Of a stretch of 64,000 bases of DNA, positions 49,644 to 64,000 are shown one piece after another. A model generated the notes under the pieces. The model did no database searches, was not told the DNA's origin, and worked only from the letters and a program-made list of their open reading frames with translations. Position 1 is the stretch's first letter. Each line of letters starts with the position of its first letter. Source of the DNA: Candidatus Gastranaerophilales bacterium (GTDB taxonomy: Bacteria; Cyanobacteriota; Vampirovibrionia; Gastranaerophilales; Gastranaerophilaceae); assembly GCA_944324225.1 (NCBI GenBank), contig CALUVL010000006.1, positions 1 to 64,000 of the forward strand, read 5' to 3'. Both the position numbers and the translations under genes were made by a program.

Positions 49644-51596
49644 ATGAAAAACTTAAAATCCAAAGCATTTTTTATATATTCTTTTATATTTTACATAATA
49701 CTTTCGATAGTATTAATTTTAATATCATGGCAGATTTTTGAACCTAATGCATATAATTTTATGGTAAAGAACTTTACGGCTCTTGAAAATGCCTCGGATG
49801 ATATTGTGCTTGTGGTTATTGATGACAAATCCACTGCAAAATACCGCTGGCCGTGGAAAAGAGAATTGTATGCTAAAATATTTGAATATTTGAATGATTA
49901 CTGCGACACAAAGCTTATCGGATTTGATGCTATTGTGGCAAACCTTGACAAAGATAATCCGCAGTCAGACAAAGAGTTTTTTGATACAGTAAAAAAGACA
50001 AATAATCTGGTTGTCGGGTTCAGCCTGATTGATGACAAACCTCTTGATGCAAAAGCAGCTGAGATTTACGAACAGGCATTTTACGATAAATTCGGCACAA
50101 ATATTGAAGACAAACGTGAAAAATATATTTACCCTTCTAAATACGGAAGCTTTTCAAAATTTCCGAAAGAATATTTTGATGCAGTCAAAGCCACAGGATC
50201 AGTAAATTCAACCAGATCCCCTTCCAATGGATATTTAATTTTTAATGATCTTATAATCTCACTCAATAAAAAATATTATCCGTCATTATCTTTAAAAATG
50301 TACATGCTTTTAAATGGGGCTGACAAACTTACCATGTATGACGAGAGTGTTGTTGTAGAGAAAACCGGTCTTACAATTCCGACAATGGTAAGCTATAACG
50401 GCATTCACAACTACATCAAATTTTATAAAATTAAAAACAGAACATCATTTTCACATAAAAAATACTCTGCGGTTGATATTCTGGATTCACTGGACAAAAT
50501 AAAAGCCGGAAAACCACCGGTTATTAAGCCTGAAGAACTTAAAGGGAAAATCGTTTTTGTAGGCGGTAACGCAAAAGCGTCAGCAATAAAAGTTATAGAT
50601 GCTCAACCTACGCCAATGCTTCACGAACATCCGGGAGTCGATATTCAGGCTATAAATCTAAGCAACTTTATTAAAAATGATATAATGAAAATAAGTTCGC
50701 TTAAATTTGATTTATTTGTAATTTTAATTTTGAGTATTTTTACTTTTGCAATTATCAACCGATTTTCAGTATTCAAGTCGATATTTATTCTTGTGTTAAC
50801 AGCGCTTGGATATTTAGGACTTGCAGGATTTTGCTACAGACATGACTTTGGAGTAAATGTTGTTACGCCGCTTGGCATACAGCTTATTACGATGATTTTT
50901 GCATATTCTTACAGATTTATAGTTGAGGGCAAGAACAAAGAAAAAATTAAACAGGCAATGGGCAAATACCTGTCACAGGATATTATGCAGAATGTTGTAA
51001 AAAACATAGACGACATCAAGCTTGGCGGAAAACGTGCAAATGTAACTGTTCTTTTTGCAGACATTCGTGGCTTTACAAGCATGAGCGAAAAGATGACGGC
51101 GGAAGAAGTTTCCAAAATTTTGAATGAATACTTCACAGAAATAGAGCCGATAATAACCAAATACAACGGAGTAATTAACAAATTTATCGGTGACGCTGTA
51201 ATGGCGATATTTGGAGAACCTATACAGGATTTGAATCACCCTGTAAATGCTGTCAAATGCGCCTATGAAATGCTTAGAAAAGTTGATGAACTACGTGACA
51301 AATGGCTTTTTGAAGGCAAACCAAAGATCGAAATAGGTATCGGAATTAATACAGGCGATGCATTTGTAGGGAATATAGGCTCTGAAAAACGTCTTGAATA
51401 CACGGTTATCGGAGACACGGTAAACCTTGCAAGTCGTATTGAAAGCTACAACAAAGTTTACCGCACCAATTTCCTTATAAGCAGTTCTACTTACTCTCAT
51501 GTCAGCAATATAGCAGACGTAATAAAAATAAGCGAGGTTACAATCCGCGGAAAAGCAAAAAAGATGGATATCTATGAAGTTTTGCGGATAAGTTAA
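49644..51596 (+). CDS. CHASE2-domain class III adenylate cyclase
   Basis: A membrane helix (about 8-28), a large extracytoplasmic CHASE2 sensor (about 35-345), three membrane helices (about 350-425) and the catalytic domain (about 460-645). Metal-binding Asp473 (LFADIRGF) and Asp517 (FIGDAVMAIFG), substrate-specifying Lys513 (NKFIGD) and Asp591 (VIGDTVNLASR) match adenylate cyclase, so it makes cAMP in response to an external signal. Strong AAGGAGGGG precedes the ATG. It converges on the XRE gene. Confidence 0.95.
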   Translation: MKNLKSKAFFIYSFIFYIILSIVLILISWQIFEPNAYNFMVKNFTALENASDDIVLVVIDDKSTAKYRWPWKRELYAKIFEYLNDYCDTKLIGFDAIVANLDKDNPQSDKEFFDTVKKTNNLVVGFSLIDDKPLDAKAAEIYEQAFYDKFGTNIEDKREKYIYPSKYGSFSKFPKEYFDAVKATGSVNSTRSPSNGYLIFNDLIISLNKKYYPSLSLKMYMLLNGADKLTMYDESVVVEKTGLTIPTMVSYNGIHNYIKFYKIKNRTSFSHKKYSAVDILDSLDKIKAGKPPVIKPEELKGKIVFVGGNAKASAIKVIDAQPTPMLHEHPGVDIQAINLSNFIKNDIMKISSLKFDLFVILILSIFTFAIINRFSVFKSIFILVLTALGYLGLAGFCYRHDFGVNVVTPLGIQLITMIFAYSYRFIVEGKNKEKIKQAMGKYLSQDIMQNVVKNIDDIKLGGKRANVTVLFADIRGFTSMSEKMTAEEVSKILNEYFTEIEPIITKYNGVINKFIGDAVMAIFGEPIQDLNHPVNAVKCAYEMLRKVDELRDKWLFEGKPKIEIGIGINTGDAFVGNIGSEKRLEYTVIGDTVNLASRIESYNKVYRTNFLISSSTYSHVSNIADVIKISEVTIRGKAKKMDIYEVLRIS

Positions 51597-51826
51597 ATTT
51601 CAAGATTTTTAAATATCAACAATTCATAAGGCTCATATTCAAGAGCAGTTGCTATTTTTTCAACAACATCAAGTGTAGGTGATGAAGTTTGCGCTTCAAT
51701 TTGCGTAAGCGTAGATCTGCCGATTCCGGCAAGTTCAGCAAGCTTTTCCTGTGAGTAGCGTCGTTTTGTACGTTCAAATCGAACGCGTGTTGCAAACTTT
51801 TTAGCTAAAGTTGATATATTGGTCAT
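51593..51826 (-). CDS. XRE/Cro-type HTH regulator, partner of prepilin module 1
   Basis: The 77-residue protein is a bare HTH domain (YSQEKLAELAGIGRSTLTQIEAQTSSPTLDVVEKIATAL) with a short tail, as in phage-type repressors and antitoxin-like regulators. Its ATG at 51826 has no ribosome site. A TATAAC box lies exactly 6 nt before it and inside one arm of an inverted repeat, so it should be autoregulated and leaderless. It is divergent from the prepilin gene. Confidence 0.92.
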   Translation of the reverse strand: MTNISTLAKKFATRVRFERTKRRYSQEKLAELAGIGRSTLTQIEAQTSSPTLDVVEKIATALEYEPYELLIFKNLEI

Positions 51827-51828
51827 AA

Positions 51829-51875
51829 TGTCGTTATATTAACATCTTGACAATATAACGACAATACGTTATTAT
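51829..51875. promoter_or_regulatory. Divergent operator-promoter of prepilin module 1
   Basis: A perfect 12-bp inverted repeat, TGTCGTTATATT (51829-51840) and AATATAACGACA (51852-51863), spaced 11 bp. The plus-strand prepilin promoter TTGACA (51847-51852), 17 bp, TATTAT (51870-51875) overlaps the right arm; the minus-strand -10 TATAAC (51833-51838) lies in the left arm. A dimeric repressor bound here would block both. Confidence 0.75.
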
Positions 51876-51927
51876 AATATTATTGACGTTATTATATCTG
51901 TATTATTATAATTACAACGGAGGATAT

Positions 51928-52602
51928 GTGAAACCATTAAAAGCTTTTACAATGGCGGAAGTCCTGATAACACTTGGTGTAATCGGGATAGTCGCCTGTA
52001 TGACAATGCCTGGAGTTATAAAGAATTATCAGAAAAAAGTCACTGTTGAACGTCTTAAACAGACATATTCAATGATGCAGCAGGCTGTCAGATTATCAGA
52101 AGTTCAAAACGGCTCAAGCGAAGACTGGATTTTGCCAGCTTATGCAAGCCCCGGGGACACAAATGCAACTGAATCATTTGTAAAAATGTATTATGAACCT
52201 TATCTTCAAACCATACACAGAGATAAATTAGCGTCCTCCGGTACACCATACGACTATTACTATTACACAAACGACGGACAAAAAGTTGAAAATGCAGGCC
52301 ACACACACTACAGCATAGCTTTGATAAACGGGGTTTATCTTCACTTTAACGCACATTATGGCGTATCACAGTATATTACTCTCCGAGTGGACATTAACGG
52401 AAAACAAAATCCAAATACAATAGGCATTGATACTTTTTACATGCACGCATATCCTAAAATGGAACTGATTGGAGAAGGAGATGACAAAAAAACTCTGCTA
52501 GAAAACTGCAAAACACCGGCACGTGCTGATTTACAGTCCTACTGCGGAGCACTTATTATGGCTGACGGGTGGGAAATCAGAGATGACTACCCATGGCACT
52601 GA
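51928..52602 (+). CDS. Type IV prepilin-like protein, module 1
   Basis: The leader VKPLKA precedes FTMAEVLITLGVIGIVACM, the prepilin peptidase site with Glu5 and the hydrophobic helix. The start is GTG at 51928 behind GGAGG; an ATG at 51883 gives an extra Tyr-rich leader and is less likely. The globular head (about 45-224) has Cys in ENCKTPARADLQSYCG and ends GWEIRDDYPWH. It is a minor or species-specific pilin/pseudopilin, exported by a type IV pilus or type II system. The partner at 61330 shares the C-terminal pattern. Confidence 0.9.
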   Translation: MKPLKAFTMAEVLITLGVIGIVACMTMPGVIKNYQKKVTVERLKQTYSMMQQAVRLSEVQNGSSEDWILPAYASPGDTNATESFVKMYYEPYLQTIHRDKLASSGTPYDYYYYTNDGQKVENAGHTHYSIALINGVYLHFNAHYGVSQYITLRVDINGKQNPNTIGIDTFYMHAYPKMELIGEGDDKKTLLENCKTPARADLQSYCGALIMADGWEIRDDYPWH

Positions 52603-52623
52603 TGATTATGATACAATCTACTT

Positions 52624-55011
52624 ATGATTGAGGATCTGGAGAAACTAAAACTTGCAATAGATGTGGAGGTTAAGCACCGCTATATTGATATTAGGGGGAA
52701 AACCCAGTGTTTTTCCAAATTTATTATGTCCGAAGCAAATAAATATTACAAACTATCTAAAAAGAACCCGAAGTGGGCGGTAATTGCAGAAACTTTTGCG
52801 CATTATCCTTTTGCATCGGTTCCTGAAAGACGACGCTCAATAGAACATCTTGTAAAGGTTATCAAATCTGAAACTGCCCAGAATACCAAAGCTCCGGACA
52901 AACAGCCCGCATCAAGCACACCGCTTAAAAATCCCGCAGAAACAGATGTCACTTATGTAAAAGGTGTTGGGCCTAAAGTTGCTTATACTCTCAACAAACT
53001 CGGAATTTATACGGCACAGGATCTTATTTTTTATCTTCCGCGAAAGCATATTGACTACTCAAGCCGTACCCTTATAAAGGATTTAGAAGAAGGACAGTCA
53101 ACAACCGTTTTTGGCTACATAAAATCAGTTTCGGCATTTAACTCAAAAAATAATCTTTCTGTCGTCAAGGTCAAAATTGCTGATGAAACGGGCTTTGTGG
53201 AACTAGGATTTTTCCAGGCCAAAGGCAACCGCTTTACGCTTGAAAGAACTAAAGCCCAATTTCCTGTTAACGCCGGCATAATGGTTTCAGGGACTGTCAA
53301 ATTGAACAACTACGACCACCGCCTGACTTTTGACAAACCAACATACTCGATTATGACCGGCGAATTTCTCGAAAATGGAGCCTCAAACCTTAATATGGCA
53401 CGGATTGTTCCGATATATACAGTCTGTGAAAATCTTAATGTAAAAACCCTTAGAAAAGCAATCTTTAATGCAATTCAGCTCTACAAAAATTCAATCCCGG
53501 ATATTTTGCCTCAATATTTGAAAGAAAAATACAATTTGCTTGATAAAAAAACAGCCATAGAGCAAATTCACTTTCCGGAGAATCAGGAACTTTTGGAAAA
53601 GGCGCGTTTCAGCCTGATTTTTGAAGAACTCTTTATTGTGCAGTTAAAAATGGTACGCCTTAGAAATGAAAACAGCAAACACTCGGCAATTGCGCTTGAT
53701 GTAAAGCGAGACGGACTTGTCCGCAAATTTATTGACAGCCTGCCATTTGAGCTTACCGGAGGGCAGAAAAGAGCAGTGAACGAAATCTTGAATGACCTTC
53801 ACTCCGAAAAACCAATGACAAGGCTTCTGCAAGGAGATGTAGGCAGCGGGAAAACTGTTGTTGCATGTATTATGCTTCTTGCGGGCGTTGAAAACGGCTA
53901 TCAGGGCGCACTTATGGCTCCGACAGAAATTCTGGCGCAGCAGCACTACAACAACCTTGTAAACTGGCTTACTCCTCTTGGCCTTAGCGTCGGACTTTTT
54001 CTTGGCAGCCAGAGCAAAAAGACAAGAGAAAAATTTCAGACAGACTTAAGAAACGGACAGACAAACATTGCAGTCGGCACCCACGCGCTTATTCAGGAGT
54101 CAACAGACTTCAAAAATCTCGGCGCAATAGTAGTTGATGAACAGCACAGATTTGGTGTTAAACAGCGCAACGTCCTTAAGAAAAAATCACAGAACCCGCA
54201 AATGCTTACAATGACAGCTACTCCAATTCCAAGAACCCTTGCTCTTACAGTTCACGGTGATCTGGATTTGACAATCATTGACGAACTTCCAAAAGGCAGA
54301 CTGCCTATTAAAACAACCCTTACTTCTTCGCACAAAAGCGTGTATGAACTTATCAGGCATGAGGTTTCAGAAGGAAGACAAGCCTATGTAGTTTATCCGC
54401 TTATTGACGAAAGTGAAGCTCTTTCCGCAAAAGCAGCCACAAAGGAGGCAGAAAGACTGCAATCAGAAGTTTTTCCCGACCTTAAAATCGGACTTCTTCA
54501 CGGCAAACTTAAAAACGATGAAAAAGAACAGGTTATGGCGGATTTTAAGAACAAAAAATACGATATTCTTGTTTCTACAACAGTTGTAGAAGTAGGTGTT
54601 GATGTTCCGAATGCCACGGTTATGGTAATAGAAAATGCAGAAAGATTTGGACTTAGCCAGCTTCACCAGCTGAGAGGACGTGTGGGAAGGAGCAGTCTTC
54701 AATCCTATTGCGTTCTTGTAAGCTCCTCACGCTCGCAGGAAACCCGTGAACGCCTCGGAATTATGACCCAGACAAATGACGGTTTTGTAATAGCAGAAAA
54801 AGACTTACAATTGAGAGGCCCAGGTGAATTTCTTGGCACAAGACAGTCAGGTTTGCCGGATTTAATAATTTCCGATATTGTACGGGACGCCGAAATTCTT
54901 GAAAAAGCAAGATACGAAGCAATAAATTTTATAAATAACTGCGATATAACAAAGTATCCTGCACTTAATAATGCCTCAAATTTACAGCTATTCACAGGTT
55001 TAGACATTTAA
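52624..55011 (+). CDS. recG: ATP-dependent DNA helicase RecG
   Basis: RecG reverses stalled forks and unwinds branched DNA. The wedge begins VKGVGPKVAYTLNKLGIYTAQDLIFYLPR; the helicase has the Walker A loop GDVGSGKT, VVDEQHRFG, MTATPIPRTL, STTVVEVGVDVPNATVMVIENAERFG and QLRGRVGRS. An N-terminal extension of about 110 residues (total 795) resembles cyanobacterial RecG. TACAAT is 6 nt before the ATG, with no ribosome site. Confidence 0.97.
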   Translation: MIEDLEKLKLAIDVEVKHRYIDIRGKTQCFSKFIMSEANKYYKLSKKNPKWAVIAETFAHYPFASVPERRRSIEHLVKVIKSETAQNTKAPDKQPASSTPLKNPAETDVTYVKGVGPKVAYTLNKLGIYTAQDLIFYLPRKHIDYSSRTLIKDLEEGQSTTVFGYIKSVSAFNSKNNLSVVKVKIADETGFVELGFFQAKGNRFTLERTKAQFPVNAGIMVSGTVKLNNYDHRLTFDKPTYSIMTGEFLENGASNLNMARIVPIYTVCENLNVKTLRKAIFNAIQLYKNSIPDILPQYLKEKYNLLDKKTAIEQIHFPENQELLEKARFSLIFEELFIVQLKMVRLRNENSKHSAIALDVKRDGLVRKFIDSLPFELTGGQKRAVNEILNDLHSEKPMTRLLQGDVGSGKTVVACIMLLAGVENGYQGALMAPTEILAQQHYNNLVNWLTPLGLSVGLFLGSQSKKTREKFQTDLRNGQTNIAVGTHALIQESTDFKNLGAIVVDEQHRFGVKQRNVLKKKSQNPQMLTMTATPIPRTLALTVHGDLDLTIIDELPKGRLPIKTTLTSSHKSVYELIRHEVSEGRQAYVVYPLIDESEALSAKAATKEAERLQSEVFPDLKIGLLHGKLKNDEKEQVMADFKNKKYDILVSTTVVEVGVDVPNATVMVIENAERFGLSQLHQLRGRVGRSSLQSYCVLVSSSRSQETRERLGIMTQTNDGFVIAEKDLQLRGPGEFLGTRQSGLPDLIISDIVRDAEILEKARYEAINFINNCDITKYPALNNASNLQLFTGLDI

Positions 55012-55190: not shown

Positions 55191-56120
55191 ATGGGCGGAA
55201 GACCAATAGGATATCAACCATTACGAGCCGGACTCCACAGACCGTGGGTCGGTCCAAGAACGGTTAATATAAATCATAAAGAAACCACCATAAATAATTT
55301 TGGAGGTGGATTCTTCCCTATGATGGGCGCTTACGGTTATTATGACACCGGACTCAGCAAAGGCGAAAAATGGGGCATTGCATTAGGAGCAATAGGAGCA
55401 CTTGGTGGAGCTATTGCAAGTGCATTTTTGCCTCAAAAAGCCGATGGCAAAGGTGATGTAGAAACACCAGCACAGGCAGGGTTGAGCAATGAACAAAAGC
55501 AGTGGATGGAAGACACTCAAGAACAACTCAACCAGATGCAAAAAAGTCTTGAACAGCTTACAGAAGAAAACTCTAAGTTAAAAGCACAGGCTCAAGAAAT
55601 TCAGAACTTAAAAGCCGCATCTCAAGCTTATCAGCAGCAACACTCTGGCAAAGTTGAGGAAGTTAAACAAGAACCTGAAACTGTAACTTTCAATGTAGCT
55701 GCAGAAAAAGATGGAGATCAGGTTGAAGGACACACTGGTTATAACATTGTAGCCACTATGTACAAGTCACCTGACGGAAAAGCACTTACAAGCACTGAGA
55801 TAAAGGGGCTTTGTGAGGTTATATTTAAAGGAAAGGCATTGCCGAAAGGCGAAATTAACCTTCCTAGAGAAGTGGAATTCCAAGGTAAAACATATACTTG
55901 GGATAACTCAATAGCAAACCCCGAAGAGGCTACACCAACAAGCACATATAACCTTGCACAGCACGACACCTACAAAAGCGAAATAAAACCAGTCGGCTCA
56001 AAATGGGCGGTTTATGTTGACGGAAAACAAGTCGGCGACCTTCACGACACAAAAGATTTAGCTGATGAGGCCTTAAAAACAGAACTTGAAAAACTTAACA
56101 ATAGCGAAGATGCTTCATAA
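55191..56120 (+). CDS. INNFGGG-type Gly-rich coiled-coil protein 1
   Basis: The 309-residue protein starts at ATG 55191 behind AAGGAGATAG. Its N-terminus shares NINHKETTINNFGGG with the next gene (NINYQKTTINNFGGG). A hydrophobic helix with GxxxG spacing (WGIALGAIGALGGAIASAFL) follows at about 62-82, then a Gln/Glu coiled coil (about 103-150) and a beta-rich C-terminal domain of about 140 residues. A membrane-inserted structural or adhesive protein is possible. No known family. Confidence 0.75.
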   Translation: MGGRPIGYQPLRAGLHRPWVGPRTVNINHKETTINNFGGGFFPMMGAYGYYDTGLSKGEKWGIALGAIGALGGAIASAFLPQKADGKGDVETPAQAGLSNEQKQWMEDTQEQLNQMQKSLEQLTEENSKLKAQAQEIQNLKAASQAYQQQHSGKVEEVKQEPETVTFNVAAEKDGDQVEGHTGYNIVATMYKSPDGKALTSTEIKGLCEVIFKGKALPKGEINLPREVEFQGKTYTWDNSIANPEEATPTSTYNLAQHDTYKSEIKPVGSKWAVYVDGKQVGDLHDTKDLADEALKTELEKLNNSEDAS

Positions 56121-56141
56121 AATATTAGGAGATTACTTAAA

Positions 56142-57080
56142 ATGTCATGGATGATAGGCAGAAATCATTGCACAGTACCAACTGGTAGATTAACATTAGG
56201 TTCAAGAACGAACCTGAATATTAACTACCAGAAGACAACTATAAACAATTTCGGCGGAGGCGCCGGAGTTTTTGGCTGCGGCGGTTTCGGTGCAGGCATG
56301 GGCATGATGGGAATGTATCCTACAATGGGAATGATGGACATGTATGGTATGGGTATGTATGGCATGGGCGGTATGTATCCTGTTTACAATGACAGCAGAG
56401 CAGACGCAGGAGCAATTCTTACTGGTGTAGGAGCAATGGCAGGCGCAGTTGGAGGTATAATTTCTGCTATTGCAGGTAACAAAGCTCAAAAGACCGAAGC
56501 ACCGGAAGAAGAACAACAAACAGAAACCCCTGCAAATAATCAGTTTGAAGAATTTCAAGCTCAAACAACAGAACAGCTTGCATCTATGAATACAAAACTT
56601 CAGGCTGCATTAAAAGAAAATCAGGATCTTAAAGCCCAAGCGGCAGAATATCAAAAACAACAACAAGCAGCACAACTTAAAAAAGAAGGCATCACTATAA
56701 ATGAAGACGGTTCATACACTACAACATATAAAGACATTACAGGCAAAGAAGTTGAGCTTAAAAGTACTGACCTCAATCAATTAAGAATACAAAAATTAAA
56801 CAATGAAAACGAAGTTTTAGAGCAACAGAAAATTATTGATGAAAACGGAATTACAGTAAATTCTGACGGAACATTCAGCATTGAACAATCAACACAAAGT
56901 GAAAATGGGAATACGACAACATCGCAAAAAATTAAATTGACTTCAAATACTCTTGAAGGACTGCTTGAGCAAATGAAAGAAAATAATATTAAACTCAAGG
57001 GTGAAGAAGAAACAACAGAGGCAATTGAAAATCCAGAAATTAACCCAAGTGAGATAGTAGATGACAATTATATGGCATAA
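56142..57080 (+). CDS. INNFGGG-type Gly/Met-rich coiled-coil protein 2
   Basis: A 312-residue tandem paralogue 21 nt after the first, with AGGAG before its ATG. It shares NINYQKTTINNFGGG, has a striking Gly-Met-Tyr-rich low-complexity run (about 48-85) where MGM, MYGM and MGG recur, a Gly/Ala hydrophobic helix (about 90-112) and a coiled coil (about 130-180). The C-terminal half repeats EDGSYTTTYKDITGKE- and SDGTFSIEQ-like hairpins. Both genes end at one terminator, so they form a bicistronic unit. Confidence 0.75.
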   Translation: MSWMIGRNHCTVPTGRLTLGSRTNLNINYQKTTINNFGGGAGVFGCGGFGAGMGMMGMYPTMGMMDMYGMGMYGMGGMYPVYNDSRADAGAILTGVGAMAGAVGGIISAIAGNKAQKTEAPEEEQQTETPANNQFEEFQAQTTEQLASMNTKLQAALKENQDLKAQAAEYQKQQQAAQLKKEGITINEDGSYTTTYKDITGKEVELKSTDLNQLRIQKLNNENEVLEQQKIIDENGITVNSDGTFSIEQSTQSENGNTTTSQKIKLTSNTLEGLLEQMKENNIKLKGEEETTEAIENPEINPSEIVDDNYMA

Positions 57081-61230: not shown

Positions 61231-61329
61231 ATCATTGTAACATAAATTTACATATTTTTCAATCGACTTTGTTGCAAAAACAACAAAGTTTTTACAAAAC
61301 TAAATAGAGGCAAAATTACACTTATTCCG

Positions 61330-61998
61330 CTATCTCCAGGGGTAATTTTTTCCGATTTTCCAGCCTGATCTAACAATTAATTCTGCGCAGGTTCTGCCGA
61401 TTTTAGAACACTCGTCTTCTATATAGTCATCAGTCTTATCATATCCTGAGGGCTTTAGCAGCCCATTATTTGTTATGTTAAAAAGAAATACATCAGCGCC
61501 AAGCCTATTTGGCAATCCGCCTGCATTTAGATCAACAAGAATCGTATAATCATAAAAAGGATCATTAAGATCCCCGCCGCCTACTGAAAAAGACAAAAAT
61601 GTACCATCAGATAATATCATTGGTGCTCGCAGATTACTGACTTCCACGCTGAAATCCCAGCTGCTTCCGTCCATTTTCACCCATGCAAACTGCTTGGAAT
61701 ATCCGCATTGTTCATAGGTATCACAATAAATCAACTTGTTAAAATATGGCTCAAAATACATCTTAAAATACTCTTTGGCTCCAAGTACCAACCCATCATT
61801 CCAGGTATTATAATCTCCATTTTTAATTTGTGTTTGAATTAATGCTTGGCTTAGAATTGAATAAACTTTTTGAAGGTGAACTTCAGTTTGTTTTTTCTTG
61901 TACCCGTTTATTACACCCGGCAAAGTCATTGCCGCAACAATGCCAATAATACCGATAGTTATCAGGACTTCTGACATCGTAAAAGCCGTTTTCTTCAT
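61330..61998 (-). CDS. Type IV prepilin-like protein, module 2
   Basis: The leader MKKTA precedes FTMSEVLITIGIIGIVAAMTLPG with Glu5. The 222-residue protein has a globular head that ends GWKIGKNYPWR, matching the GW-x-I-x3-YPW ending of the module 1 prepilin. Cys pairs (CDTYEQCG and CSKIGRTC) may form disulfides. AAAGGAT precedes the ATG. It is divergent from an XRE gene, as in module 1. Confidence 0.92.
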   Translation of the reverse strand: MKKTAFTMSEVLITIGIIGIVAAMTLPGVINGYKKKQTEVHLQKVYSILSQALIQTQIKNGDYNTWNDGLVLGAKEYFKMYFEPYFNKLIYCDTYEQCGYSKQFAWVKMDGSSWDFSVEVSNLRAPMILSDGTFLSFSVGGGDLNDPFYDYTILVDLNAGGLPNRLGADVFLFNITNNGLLKPSGYDKTDDYIEDECSKIGRTCAELIVRSGWKIGKNYPWR

Positions 61999-62024
61999 AA
62001 ATATCCTTTAATTAATTTTAAATC

Positions 62025-62064
62025 ATGTACTAATAATTTTAGTACATAATTTAATTTGTGTCAA
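62025..62064. promoter_or_regulatory. Divergent operator-promoter of prepilin module 2
   Basis: A perfect 9-bp inverted repeat, ATGTACTAA (62025-62033) and TTAGTACAT (62039-62047), spaced 5 bp. The minus-strand prepilin promoter TTGACA (62059-62064), 17 bp, TAAAAT (62036-62041) has its -10 box inside the repeat. Confidence 0.75.
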
Positions 62065-62094
62065 TCAAAAGATAAAAATACTATAATTTTTATT

Positions 62095-62298
62095 ATGATT
62101 GAATTTAAACTTGATGATTTGATATGGATGCACAGAACAACGGCCGAAGAGGTTCACAAAGCCACCGGAATAAGCAATTCAACGCTTTCAAACATGCGCA
62201 CTGGCAAAAATAAAAATGTTAGCATCAACACTTTAGATCTACTCTGCAAACACTTTAAATGCAAAGTTTCGGATATTTTAGAATACGCAGAGGATTAA
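62095..62298 (+). CDS. XRE/Cro-type HTH regulator, partner of prepilin module 2
   Basis: The 67-residue protein is one HTH domain of the HTH_26/Cro type (TAEEVHKATGISNSTLSNMRTGKNKNVSINTLDLLCKHF...VSDILEY). ATG at 62095 is chosen: TATAAT at 62082-62087 lies 7 nt upstream, so transcription starts beside it and the longer frame from 62056 would begin before the promoter. No ribosome site, so leaderless. Its stop overlaps the convergent helicase gene by 4 nt. Confidence 0.9.
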   Translation: MIEFKLDDLIWMHRTTAEEVHKATGISNSTLSNMRTGKNKNVSINTLDLLCKHFKCKVSDILEYAED

Positions 62299-64000
62299 TC
62301 CAGATCAACAGGCTCTCTTTGAATTTTGTCTATCGCTTCACGAGCCGTAAATACAAGAGCTTCCGGCACATTTTCAATTGTCGTAAACTGCCTTAAAACA
62401 TCGACTACACGCTTAAAAGCTCTTACAATGTCGCCTTCGCCGATATCAATCTGTCCGCAGATTGACTCCCATTCCGCTCCTTCAACCCAGAGTTCAATAA
62501 GAGATGAGAAATAAGGATTTATGTACAAAGGAGCATCTACATCACGGTTATTTTGAACTTTTTCAATTTTACGGCGGATGTTGCGTATGAGATTAAGTGT
62601 TTTTCTTACAGGCTCCGAGAACGGAATATAAGGGATTTCAATTCTCAAATCTTCTGTCACAACTGCGCAAATTACTGCTGATAATTGAGAAGGTGTCAGA
62701 TTTTCCAAAATGCCGGAAAATATAATTTCGGCTATATAAAGTTCATTTTCAGAGCGGATTTGAGATGTTGTAATGCCTCTTGATGTCGGGTAATCATTTT
62801 CTAGATATCCGAAATCATTCAAAACGCTTCTGTGTGCCAGAAACTTGTTCCAGAAAATATCACGCTGCTTTTCAACTTCTTTTTCAAGCTTTTTCTGGCG
62901 AATGTTTAATCGCTCAATTACTTCGATATTTTTTGCGTGTTTCCTATAAAGCTTGCAGGTGTCACACGGGTATTCATGCATTTTTGCAAGCATTAACTTT
63001 GTTTCTCGACCGAACTCAACAGCTTCCTGCGAAAGCGGTCTATTTTTTGCTTTTTCCTGCTTGCAGATTTTCTTGTATGTCTGGCGGTTCTGAACATAAA
63101 TATGCCTTATTTTGTCATACTCAAGAACATCATCGTCACAGTATTTGTAAGGACAGGCAAAAGTTCTTGATTCAATTTCTTTATTATTCAAATCTATTTG
63201 CTTCAAGATAGGATGAAGTCTTGTGCCTGTAGAAAAATATCCGAAGCTCTTAAGTATAAGCTCTTTTGCCTCTTCAAGACTAAAGCGCTGGAGAAGGTTC
63301 AAAACCATTGAATAACTCGGAGAAAACCTGCTTTCAAGAGGATTTGCATCACTTAGGACAAGTTCTGCGACTTCTTCCGGCGACTGGAAAGGTGTTCCGA
63401 CAATAGTTACGTATCCCACTTCATCCATACCACGGCGGCCTGCTCTGCCAGACATCTGCAAAAATTCGCTTGCCGTAAGCATTCTGTGCCCGCTGTCGGT
63501 GCGTTTGCTTGTGGAACTTATAACGGTTGAGCGGGCCGGCATATTTATGCCTGCTGCAAGAGTTTCCGTTGCAAAAACAACTTTTATAAGCCCTTTCTGG
63601 AAAAGTTTTTCAACCAGAAGTTTCCACGAAGGCAGAAGCCCTGCATGGTGTGACGCAACCCCGCATAAAAGATATTCAATATGCTTGTTATTATAAAGAT
63701 ACGGGTTTTCTGCAATATAATCGTCAATAAATTGTCTTATTTGTGCTCTTTCGGTCGGTGTTACAAGCTCTAAACCGGCACATTTTTCCATTTGTTCATC
63801 GCACTTGCGTCTGGAAAAAGTGAAATATATAGCAGGAAGCATATCTTTTTCCTGAAGGTTTCTAACAACTTCTTTCACATAAGATTTCTGTTTCAACTTG
63901 CCATGTGCAAACTTGCGCCGTTCCGGCTTAATTCTGTTATTCAAGGCACCGGATGGTGTCAAAAGAGGGAGGAGTTTGTTTGGCTGAGAGCTGTCAAAAT
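62295..64000 (-). CDS. Ski2/Mtr4-like DExH-box RNA helicase (5' end outside window)
   Basis: The frame stays open to the window end, so this is the C-terminal 568 residues of a longer protein. The second RecA domain shows GVASHHAGLLPSWKLLVE, VVFATETLAAGINMPARSTV and QMSGRAGRRGMDEVG; a Cys-x2-Cys segment (YPCDTCKLY) and the DSHCT-like C-terminal domain follow. Such proteins are typical of cyanobacteria and actinobacteria and act in RNA turnover or remodelling. The apparent start at 63962 is a TTG inside the gene. Confidence 0.93.
   Translation of the reverse strand, partial: FDSSQPNKLLPLLTPSGALNNRIKPERRKFAHGKLKQKSYVKEVVRNLQEKDMLPAIYFTFSRRKCDEQMEKCAGLELVTPTERAQIRQFIDDYIAENPYLYNNKHIEYLLCGVASHHAGLLPSWKLLVEKLFQKGLIKVVFATETLAAGINMPARSTVISSTSKRTDSGHRMLTASEFLQMSGRAGRRGMDEVGYVTIVGTPFQSPEEVAELVLSDANPLESRFSPSYSMVLNLLQRFSLEEAKELILKSFGYFSTGTRLHPILKQIDLNNKEIESRTFACPYKYCDDDVLEYDKIRHIYVQNRQTYKKICKQEKAKNRPLSQEAVEFGRETKLMLAKMHEYPCDTCKLYRKHAKNIEVIERLNIRQKKLEKEVEKQRDIFWNKFLAHRSVLNDFGYLENDYPTSRGITTSQIRSENELYIAEIIFSGILENLTPSQLSAVICAVVTEDLRIEIPYIPFSEPVRKTLNLIRNIRRKIEKVQNNRDVDAPLYINPYFSSLIELWVEGAEWESICGQIDIGEGDIVRAFKRVVDVLRQFTTIENVPEALVFTAREAIDKIQREPVDLD

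Follow-up and report, generated by a model that had tools for sequence, protein, structure and literature searches.

A divergent XRE regulator and prepilin-like gene with a candidate private operator in Candidatus Gastranaerophilales

Autoregulation from a divergent gene layout is a property of phage-type repressors such as RstR, DicA and Cro/CI, and accounts of antigenic and pilus variation usually invoke recombination or phase variation at a small number of loci. In the case of CylR2, the repressed operon is transcribed divergently and the promoters overlap (PMC3709268). The controller protein C.Esp1396I binds a 35-bp operator consisting of OL and OR, with each dimer centred on the A-T step of TATA (PMC4041747). 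A paper on the pili of Gastranaerophilales covers only the machinery (PMC5877343). In the literature searched on pilin arrays with divergent HTH regulators we did not find the regulator-pilin layout described, nor did we find Gastranaerophilales and XRE treated together. Here we analysed such a gene pair from a 1.93-Mb draft genome of a Candidatus Gastranaerophilales bacterium (GCA_944324225.1). Positions refer to the window, that is the first 64,000 nucleotides of contig CALUVL010000006.1.

The gene pair and its intergenic region

The XRE gene and the prepilin-like gene form a two-gene module between a gene for a CHASE2-adenylate/guanylate cyclase (49644-51596, stop codon at 51594-51596) and recG (52624-55011, start at 52624). 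An earlier note on this DNA had reported both genes and a perfect 12-bp inverted repeat between them, and all three were confirmed at the positions given here. The regulator gene (51593-51826, minus strand) codes for 77 aa, the prepilin-like gene (51928-52602, plus strand) for 224 aa. The likely start of the latter is the GTG at 51928, which is preceded by the Shine-Dalgarno sequence GGAGG (51919-51923, plus strand), and not the TTG at 51883 found in a mechanical ORF list. Downstream of recG, at 55191-57080, we noticed two adjacent ORFs of 309 and 312 aa with a common N-terminal region (NIN..TTINNFGGG).

The regulator matched HTH_3 (PF01381) with 51.2 bits against a cut-off of 23 (E 1.3e-13), and its AlphaFold2 model displays five helices (pLDDT 85), which assigns it to the XRE/Cro-type HTH proteins. 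Its closest solved chains are C.AhdI (E 3.5e-12), C.BclI and CylR2 (profile match, E about 1e-10). All NCBIfam scores were below their cut-offs, including that of an antitoxin model of the HipB/Y4mF type (37.4 vs 71.65 bits), and neither a ligand or sensor domain nor an inducer was found for the protein. By its score the protein is not a recognised type II antitoxin, and a conserved cognate partner was absent. A restriction-modification controller protein was rejected as well, since the neighbours are the CHASE2-cyclase, the prepilin and recG and include no restriction or methyltransferase gene.

The divergent product carries the prepilin motif TIGR02532 at its N-terminus with 17.6 bits, just over the cut-off of 16.3; Pfam N_methyl stayed under its cut-off, and no named pilin family reached its own. 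The predicted structure (pLDDT 83.5) consists of a 53-residue N-terminal helix and a beta head, for which a PDB fold search returned nothing significant. PilB-like and PilT-like ATPases and one prepilin peptidase are encoded in the genome. By its N-terminal motif and predicted shape the product is a prepilin-like protein, with putative processing and display.

Between the divergent genes lies an inverted repeat of 35 bp (51829-51863, layout 12+11+12). Its first arm TGTCGTTATATT (51829-51840, plus strand) is the perfect complement of the second (51852-51863, minus strand; AATATAACGACA when given as plus strand). An arm of at least 12 bp arose in 5 out of 2000 dinucleotide shuffles (0.25%) of the 101-bp intergenic region; on the basis of these shuffles and of dyad symmetry across 20 relatives, a chance repeat was rejected. 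The sample comprises XRE relatives with at least 66% identity from 20 genomes in seven genera of Gastranaerophilales, which share common ancestry and so do not amount to 20 independent tests. Within this sample the dyad is the most symmetric 35-bp segment of a conserved block of promoter DNA, with 8.15 of 12 pairs compared to 5.8 for the next best and a median of 3.4. The perfect 12-bp repeat was found only in the present genome, the other relatives keeping 5-11 of the 12 pairs. The earlier note had held that loss of the repeat in relatives would speak against an operator; its idea stood this check, in that the dyad is conserved, though not its perfection.

The prepilin promoter TTGACA-17-TATTAT (51847-51875) agrees with the consensus at 11 of 12 positions. 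TTGAC of its -35 box (51847-51852, plus strand) is invariant in 20/20 relatives, and the -10 box (51870-51875, plus strand) is invariant or nearly so. For the XRE gene we propose TTGTCG-17-TAATAT on the minus strand (51864-51836; -35 at 51859-51864, -10 at 51836-51841), a weak consensus match of 8/12 with columns conserved in the 20 relatives. It lies under the threshold of the promoter scan, which gave TTGTCA-17-CATTAT for this side. An alternative second prepilin promoter, TTGACG-18-TATAAT (51883-51912, plus strand), is a consensus match only. Since the proposed -10 box ends 9 nt before the ATG and a Shine-Dalgarno sequence is lacking, the XRE mRNA is predicted to be near-leaderless.

The two promoters overlap and are mirrored around 51855.5. 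The repeat had been described as overlapping the XRE -10 and the prepilin -35 box. The former holds, with arm 1 covering five of the six bases, but of the latter only the last base is reached, by arm 2, most of which falls within the prepilin spacer and on the proposed XRE -35. Mirror symmetry of the promoters was rejected as the origin of the dyad, the repeat being centred at 51846. We also rejected an RNA hairpin or terminator, as the dyad is situated upstream of both predicted transcription starts and a terminator-like site was not found. Neither an invertible segment nor a repeat tract that could act as a switch was seen in the promoter.

The geometry of the sequence is consistent with a candidate operator of ~35 bp made up of two TATA-centred pseudo-palindromes, described here by a 14-bp half-site model that was fitted by eye. 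The proposed half O1 (GTCGTTATATTAAC, 51830-51843, plus strand) is centred on the A-T step of TATA over the XRE -10 box, and its G51830 and C51843 are invariant in the 20 relatives. The proposed half O2 (GTCGTTATATTGTC, read on the minus strand, 51849-51862) is centred 19 bp from O1 at the mid-point of both promoters. A possible third and weaker site, O3 (GACGTTATTATATC, 51885-51898, plus strand), located near the prepilin transcription start, is partially conserved. The degeneracy of the repeat in the other genomes counts against the favoured model, and so do two features of the alignment. With 6-bp arms, a secondary dyad in the prepilin promoter spacer (ATAACG-ACAATA-CGTTAT, 51855-51872, plus strand) is the best in the alignment of the 20 relatives and scores slightly above the half-sites, and some of the most strongly conserved columns belong to promoter boxes.

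Exact matches of the 14-bp core GTCGTTATATTRWC occur in the genome only at O1 and O2, with one single-mismatch site elsewhere; a control with the reversed pattern yielded 3+3 at equal tolerance, and the total core count is thus not above chance. No other prepilin promoter of the genome carries the core. As the exact core is confined to this locus, the regulator looks dedicated, and a regulon common to several pilins is disfavoured.

Proposed control of the two promoters

We consider it about 70% probable that XRE is a dedicated auto-repressor of the divergent prepilin, its dimers occupying O1 and O2 within the 35-bp dyad. The dimers would be bound to two adjacent pseudo-palindromes with centres at 51836.5 and 51855.5. 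O2 would be situated some 26.5 bp upstream of either predicted transcription start, a position from which a dimer should block both promoters. O1, over the XRE -10 box and near -45 of the prepilin promoter, should when occupied block the XRE promoter. A near-leaderless regulator mRNA combined with a strong prepilin promoter could result in a low, self-limiting level of repressor, and the prepilin would be kept off or low until the repressor drops or is antagonised. The layout, its conservation, the privacy of the site, swap and loss of the module and the orientation bias can be read directly from the sequences. We infer binding, repression and autoregulation, as well as the leaderless transcript and the relieving signal, from the arrangement of the DNA; the switchable display put forward in the earlier note is conjecture. 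Its claim that XRE is a likely repressor of both the pilin gene and itself can be kept as dedicated, probably autoregulatory control, given that several genera have retained the site along with a divergent prepilin, and that it is private and survives replacement of the pilin. Repression in preference to activation is read from the position of the site.

Control might also follow the activator-repressor switch of C proteins: XRE bound to O1 as the strong site would activate the prepilin and shut its own promoter, and filling of O2 would shut both. The two adjacent sites in 35 bp, the OL/OR precedent of C.Esp1396I, the position of O1 and the C proteins as closest sequence relatives all agree with such a switch, but the prepilin promoter, with its 17-bp spacer and a consensus match that is already 11/12, should work without an activator. 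The precedents of CylR2 and C.Esp1396I together with the positions of O1 and O2 favour auto-repression and leave the C-protein-like switch, which we regard as unlikely, as the main rival.

The module in relatives and across genomes

The gene divergent from XRE is prepilin-like in 19 of the 20 relatives, counting one called by eye after the motif search missed it (G335) and one truncated frame (G020); in the exception, G219, a small protein of another kind is encoded next to XRE. The pilins vary greatly, and usually it is another pilin that is found. The long pilins beside the XRE relatives of G310, G113 and G073 (L144, L147, L149) have a C-terminal part (YW..A...C...LP...WSS) that is reminiscent of C-type-lectin/FGE-like or Lcl_C domains. 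More distant or unusual XRE relatives (L016, L017, L018, L150) face short, probably helical proteins (e.g. MNNKIEELALLSERIYNLSSVLKEYCK) and not a prepilin. Among XRE relatives from outside the order (Clostridia, Bacteroidia, filamentous cyanobacteria and others), a divergent prepilin was present only on one contig labelled Muribaculaceae. Gastranaerophilales-type XRE-prepilin modules were seen on contigs labelled Muribaculaceae and Fusobacterium sp. CAG:439 (L224, L189), which are probably mis-binned or mislabelled.

The present genome contains 44-50 prepilin N-termini and 38 HTH_3 matches above the cut-off, and the regulator-pilin layout recurs about twenty times. Over four genomes, divergent HTH_3-prepilin pairs numbered at least 21, at least 33, at least 13 and at least 20 (at least 87 in total; lower bounds for three of the four genomes), as opposed to no convergent or tandem pair among the matches listed within the distances used. 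The earlier note had called dedicated one-to-one repressors of single pilin-like genes unusual, which does not apply to this lineage: a divergent HTH_3 gene accompanies 37-49% of the listed prepilin genes in the four genomes.

These numbers bear on the explanation that XRE regulates only itself and that the pilin is a mere neighbour with common conserved promoter DNA. The XRE start region is indeed well conserved, and in genus g2 XRE relatives at 57-65% identity have no adjoining prepilin. Self-regulation alone is nevertheless quite improbable in view of the orientation bias, the constancy of the prepilin -35 and -10 boxes in the 20 relatives and a partner class that is kept though the pilin changes.

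Other modules possess dyads of their own, among them a repeat with 17-bp arms at C4:54888 and a palindrome of 24 bp at C17:15046. Fisher's combination of the dyad P values over 26 other modules, with the present one left out, gave P about 7e-6, the smallest per-module values being bounded by the 200 shuffles; many single modules have no significant dyad of their own, which counts against the favoured model. A second module in the window (61300-62300) contains a prepilin on the minus strand, a divergent HTH protein of 67-80 aa, its own dyad ATGTACTAA/TTAGTACAT and TATAAT 7 nt before the regulator start. Sixteen of 27 module regulators lack a Shine-Dalgarno sequence. By a rule of our own, with starts picked by inspection, a TAnnnT hexamer precedes the start by 6-8 nt in 10 of these 16 (mean 2.7 after shuffling; 10 reached in 0 of 2000 shuffles) compared to 0/11 of those with a Shine-Dalgarno sequence; the present module, at 9 nt, falls just outside this range. 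By inspection, a few other prepilins in the genome face other small DNA-binding proteins. At G000:C4:122262 and C4:102437 (L097, L099) this is an AbrB/MazE-like protein of 53-57 aa and not XRE, which suggests that the regulator class itself is exchangeable.

We compared the site between the cyclase gene and recG in 14 genomes of the genus. Pilin A and XRE occupy it in G000, G006 and G009; in G001 the XRE is the same (94%), but the pilin, B, is unrelated. G000 and G001 are homologous across XRE, the promoters and the N-terminal part of the pilin as far as about 52073 and again from 52606, just past the pilin stop; in between, the pilins are unrelated. The exchange point is approximate because the pilin N-terminus is conserved among paralogues. 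Remnants are present at the site in G013 (a pilin-A tail) and in G012 and G005 (pilin-B-type tails), and the remaining genomes have no module there; in G011 the site is empty and a related XRE-pilin module is found elsewhere in the genome. The module (51593-52606, between cyclase stop and recG start) is gained or lost as a unit. The same XRE and promoter next to an unrelated pilin in G001 indicate that the regulator is tied to the promoter and not to the pilin protein. Among relatives of the pilin-A head only 3 of 27 prepilin starts have a divergent XRE, so XRE and this pilin family are not coupled.

A toxin-antitoxin-like pair, in which XRE would be the antitoxin of a harmful prepilin and repress the pair, is very improbable: small XRE proteins do resemble HipB/Y4mF-type antitoxins at domain level and a gene pair with a dyad is present, but unrelated pilins beside the same XRE leave no fixed protein partner, the genes are divergent and not an operon, and scars and empty sites in most genus members argue against addiction.

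With XRE as dedicated auto-repressor, the regulator, operator, promoters and pilin N-terminus would act as a docking unit, with one pilin head exchanged for another behind it. More tentatively, each Gastranaerophilales genome may hold dozens of separately addressable prepilin modules, each with a small repressor and a private operator. Repressor, operator and pilin N-terminus would then be a fixed socket for recombined pilin heads and could provide a renewable stock of surface pilins, each gated individually; we regard this wider picture as possible, at somewhat less than even odds. An uncultured gut lineage seems to employ many one-regulator-per-pilin modules, and natural swaps, scars and empty sites make the hypothesis testable. 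If true, the private operators and their own regulators would supply a ready-made collection of small, orthogonal repressors.

Comparison with known systems

CylR2, the 66-aa Cro-like cytolysin repressor of Enterococcus faecalis, is likewise a small single-domain XRE protein that diverges from its target with overlapping promoters; here repression is predicted, and the XRE promoter is proposed by conservation and not by consensus score. CylR2, however, exists in one copy, controls a biosynthetic operon and has the membrane partner CylR1; here each pilin gene of such a pair has its own regulator, a genome holds many of these pairs, and a partner gene was not seen.

With the C proteins of restriction-modification systems (C.AhdI, C.Esp1396I) the regulator shares its closest solved sequence, that of C.AhdI, and a candidate 35-bp operator with two TATA-centred sites. 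However, C proteins control their own C/R operon, whereas the target here would be a divergent pilin. The phage-type divergent repressors RstR, DicA and Cro/CI belong to the same HTH family at domain level, but there are no phage genes in the XRE-prepilin module. Type IV pilins and type II secretion pseudopilins have in common with the product the prepilin N-terminal motif, the long N-terminal helix and the beta head, although the cut-offs of the named families are not reached and the PDB fold search gave no significant match for the head. Compared to these systems the mechanism appears to be of a known kind, while the multitude of private regulator-pilin modules whose pilins are exchangeable appears to be new.
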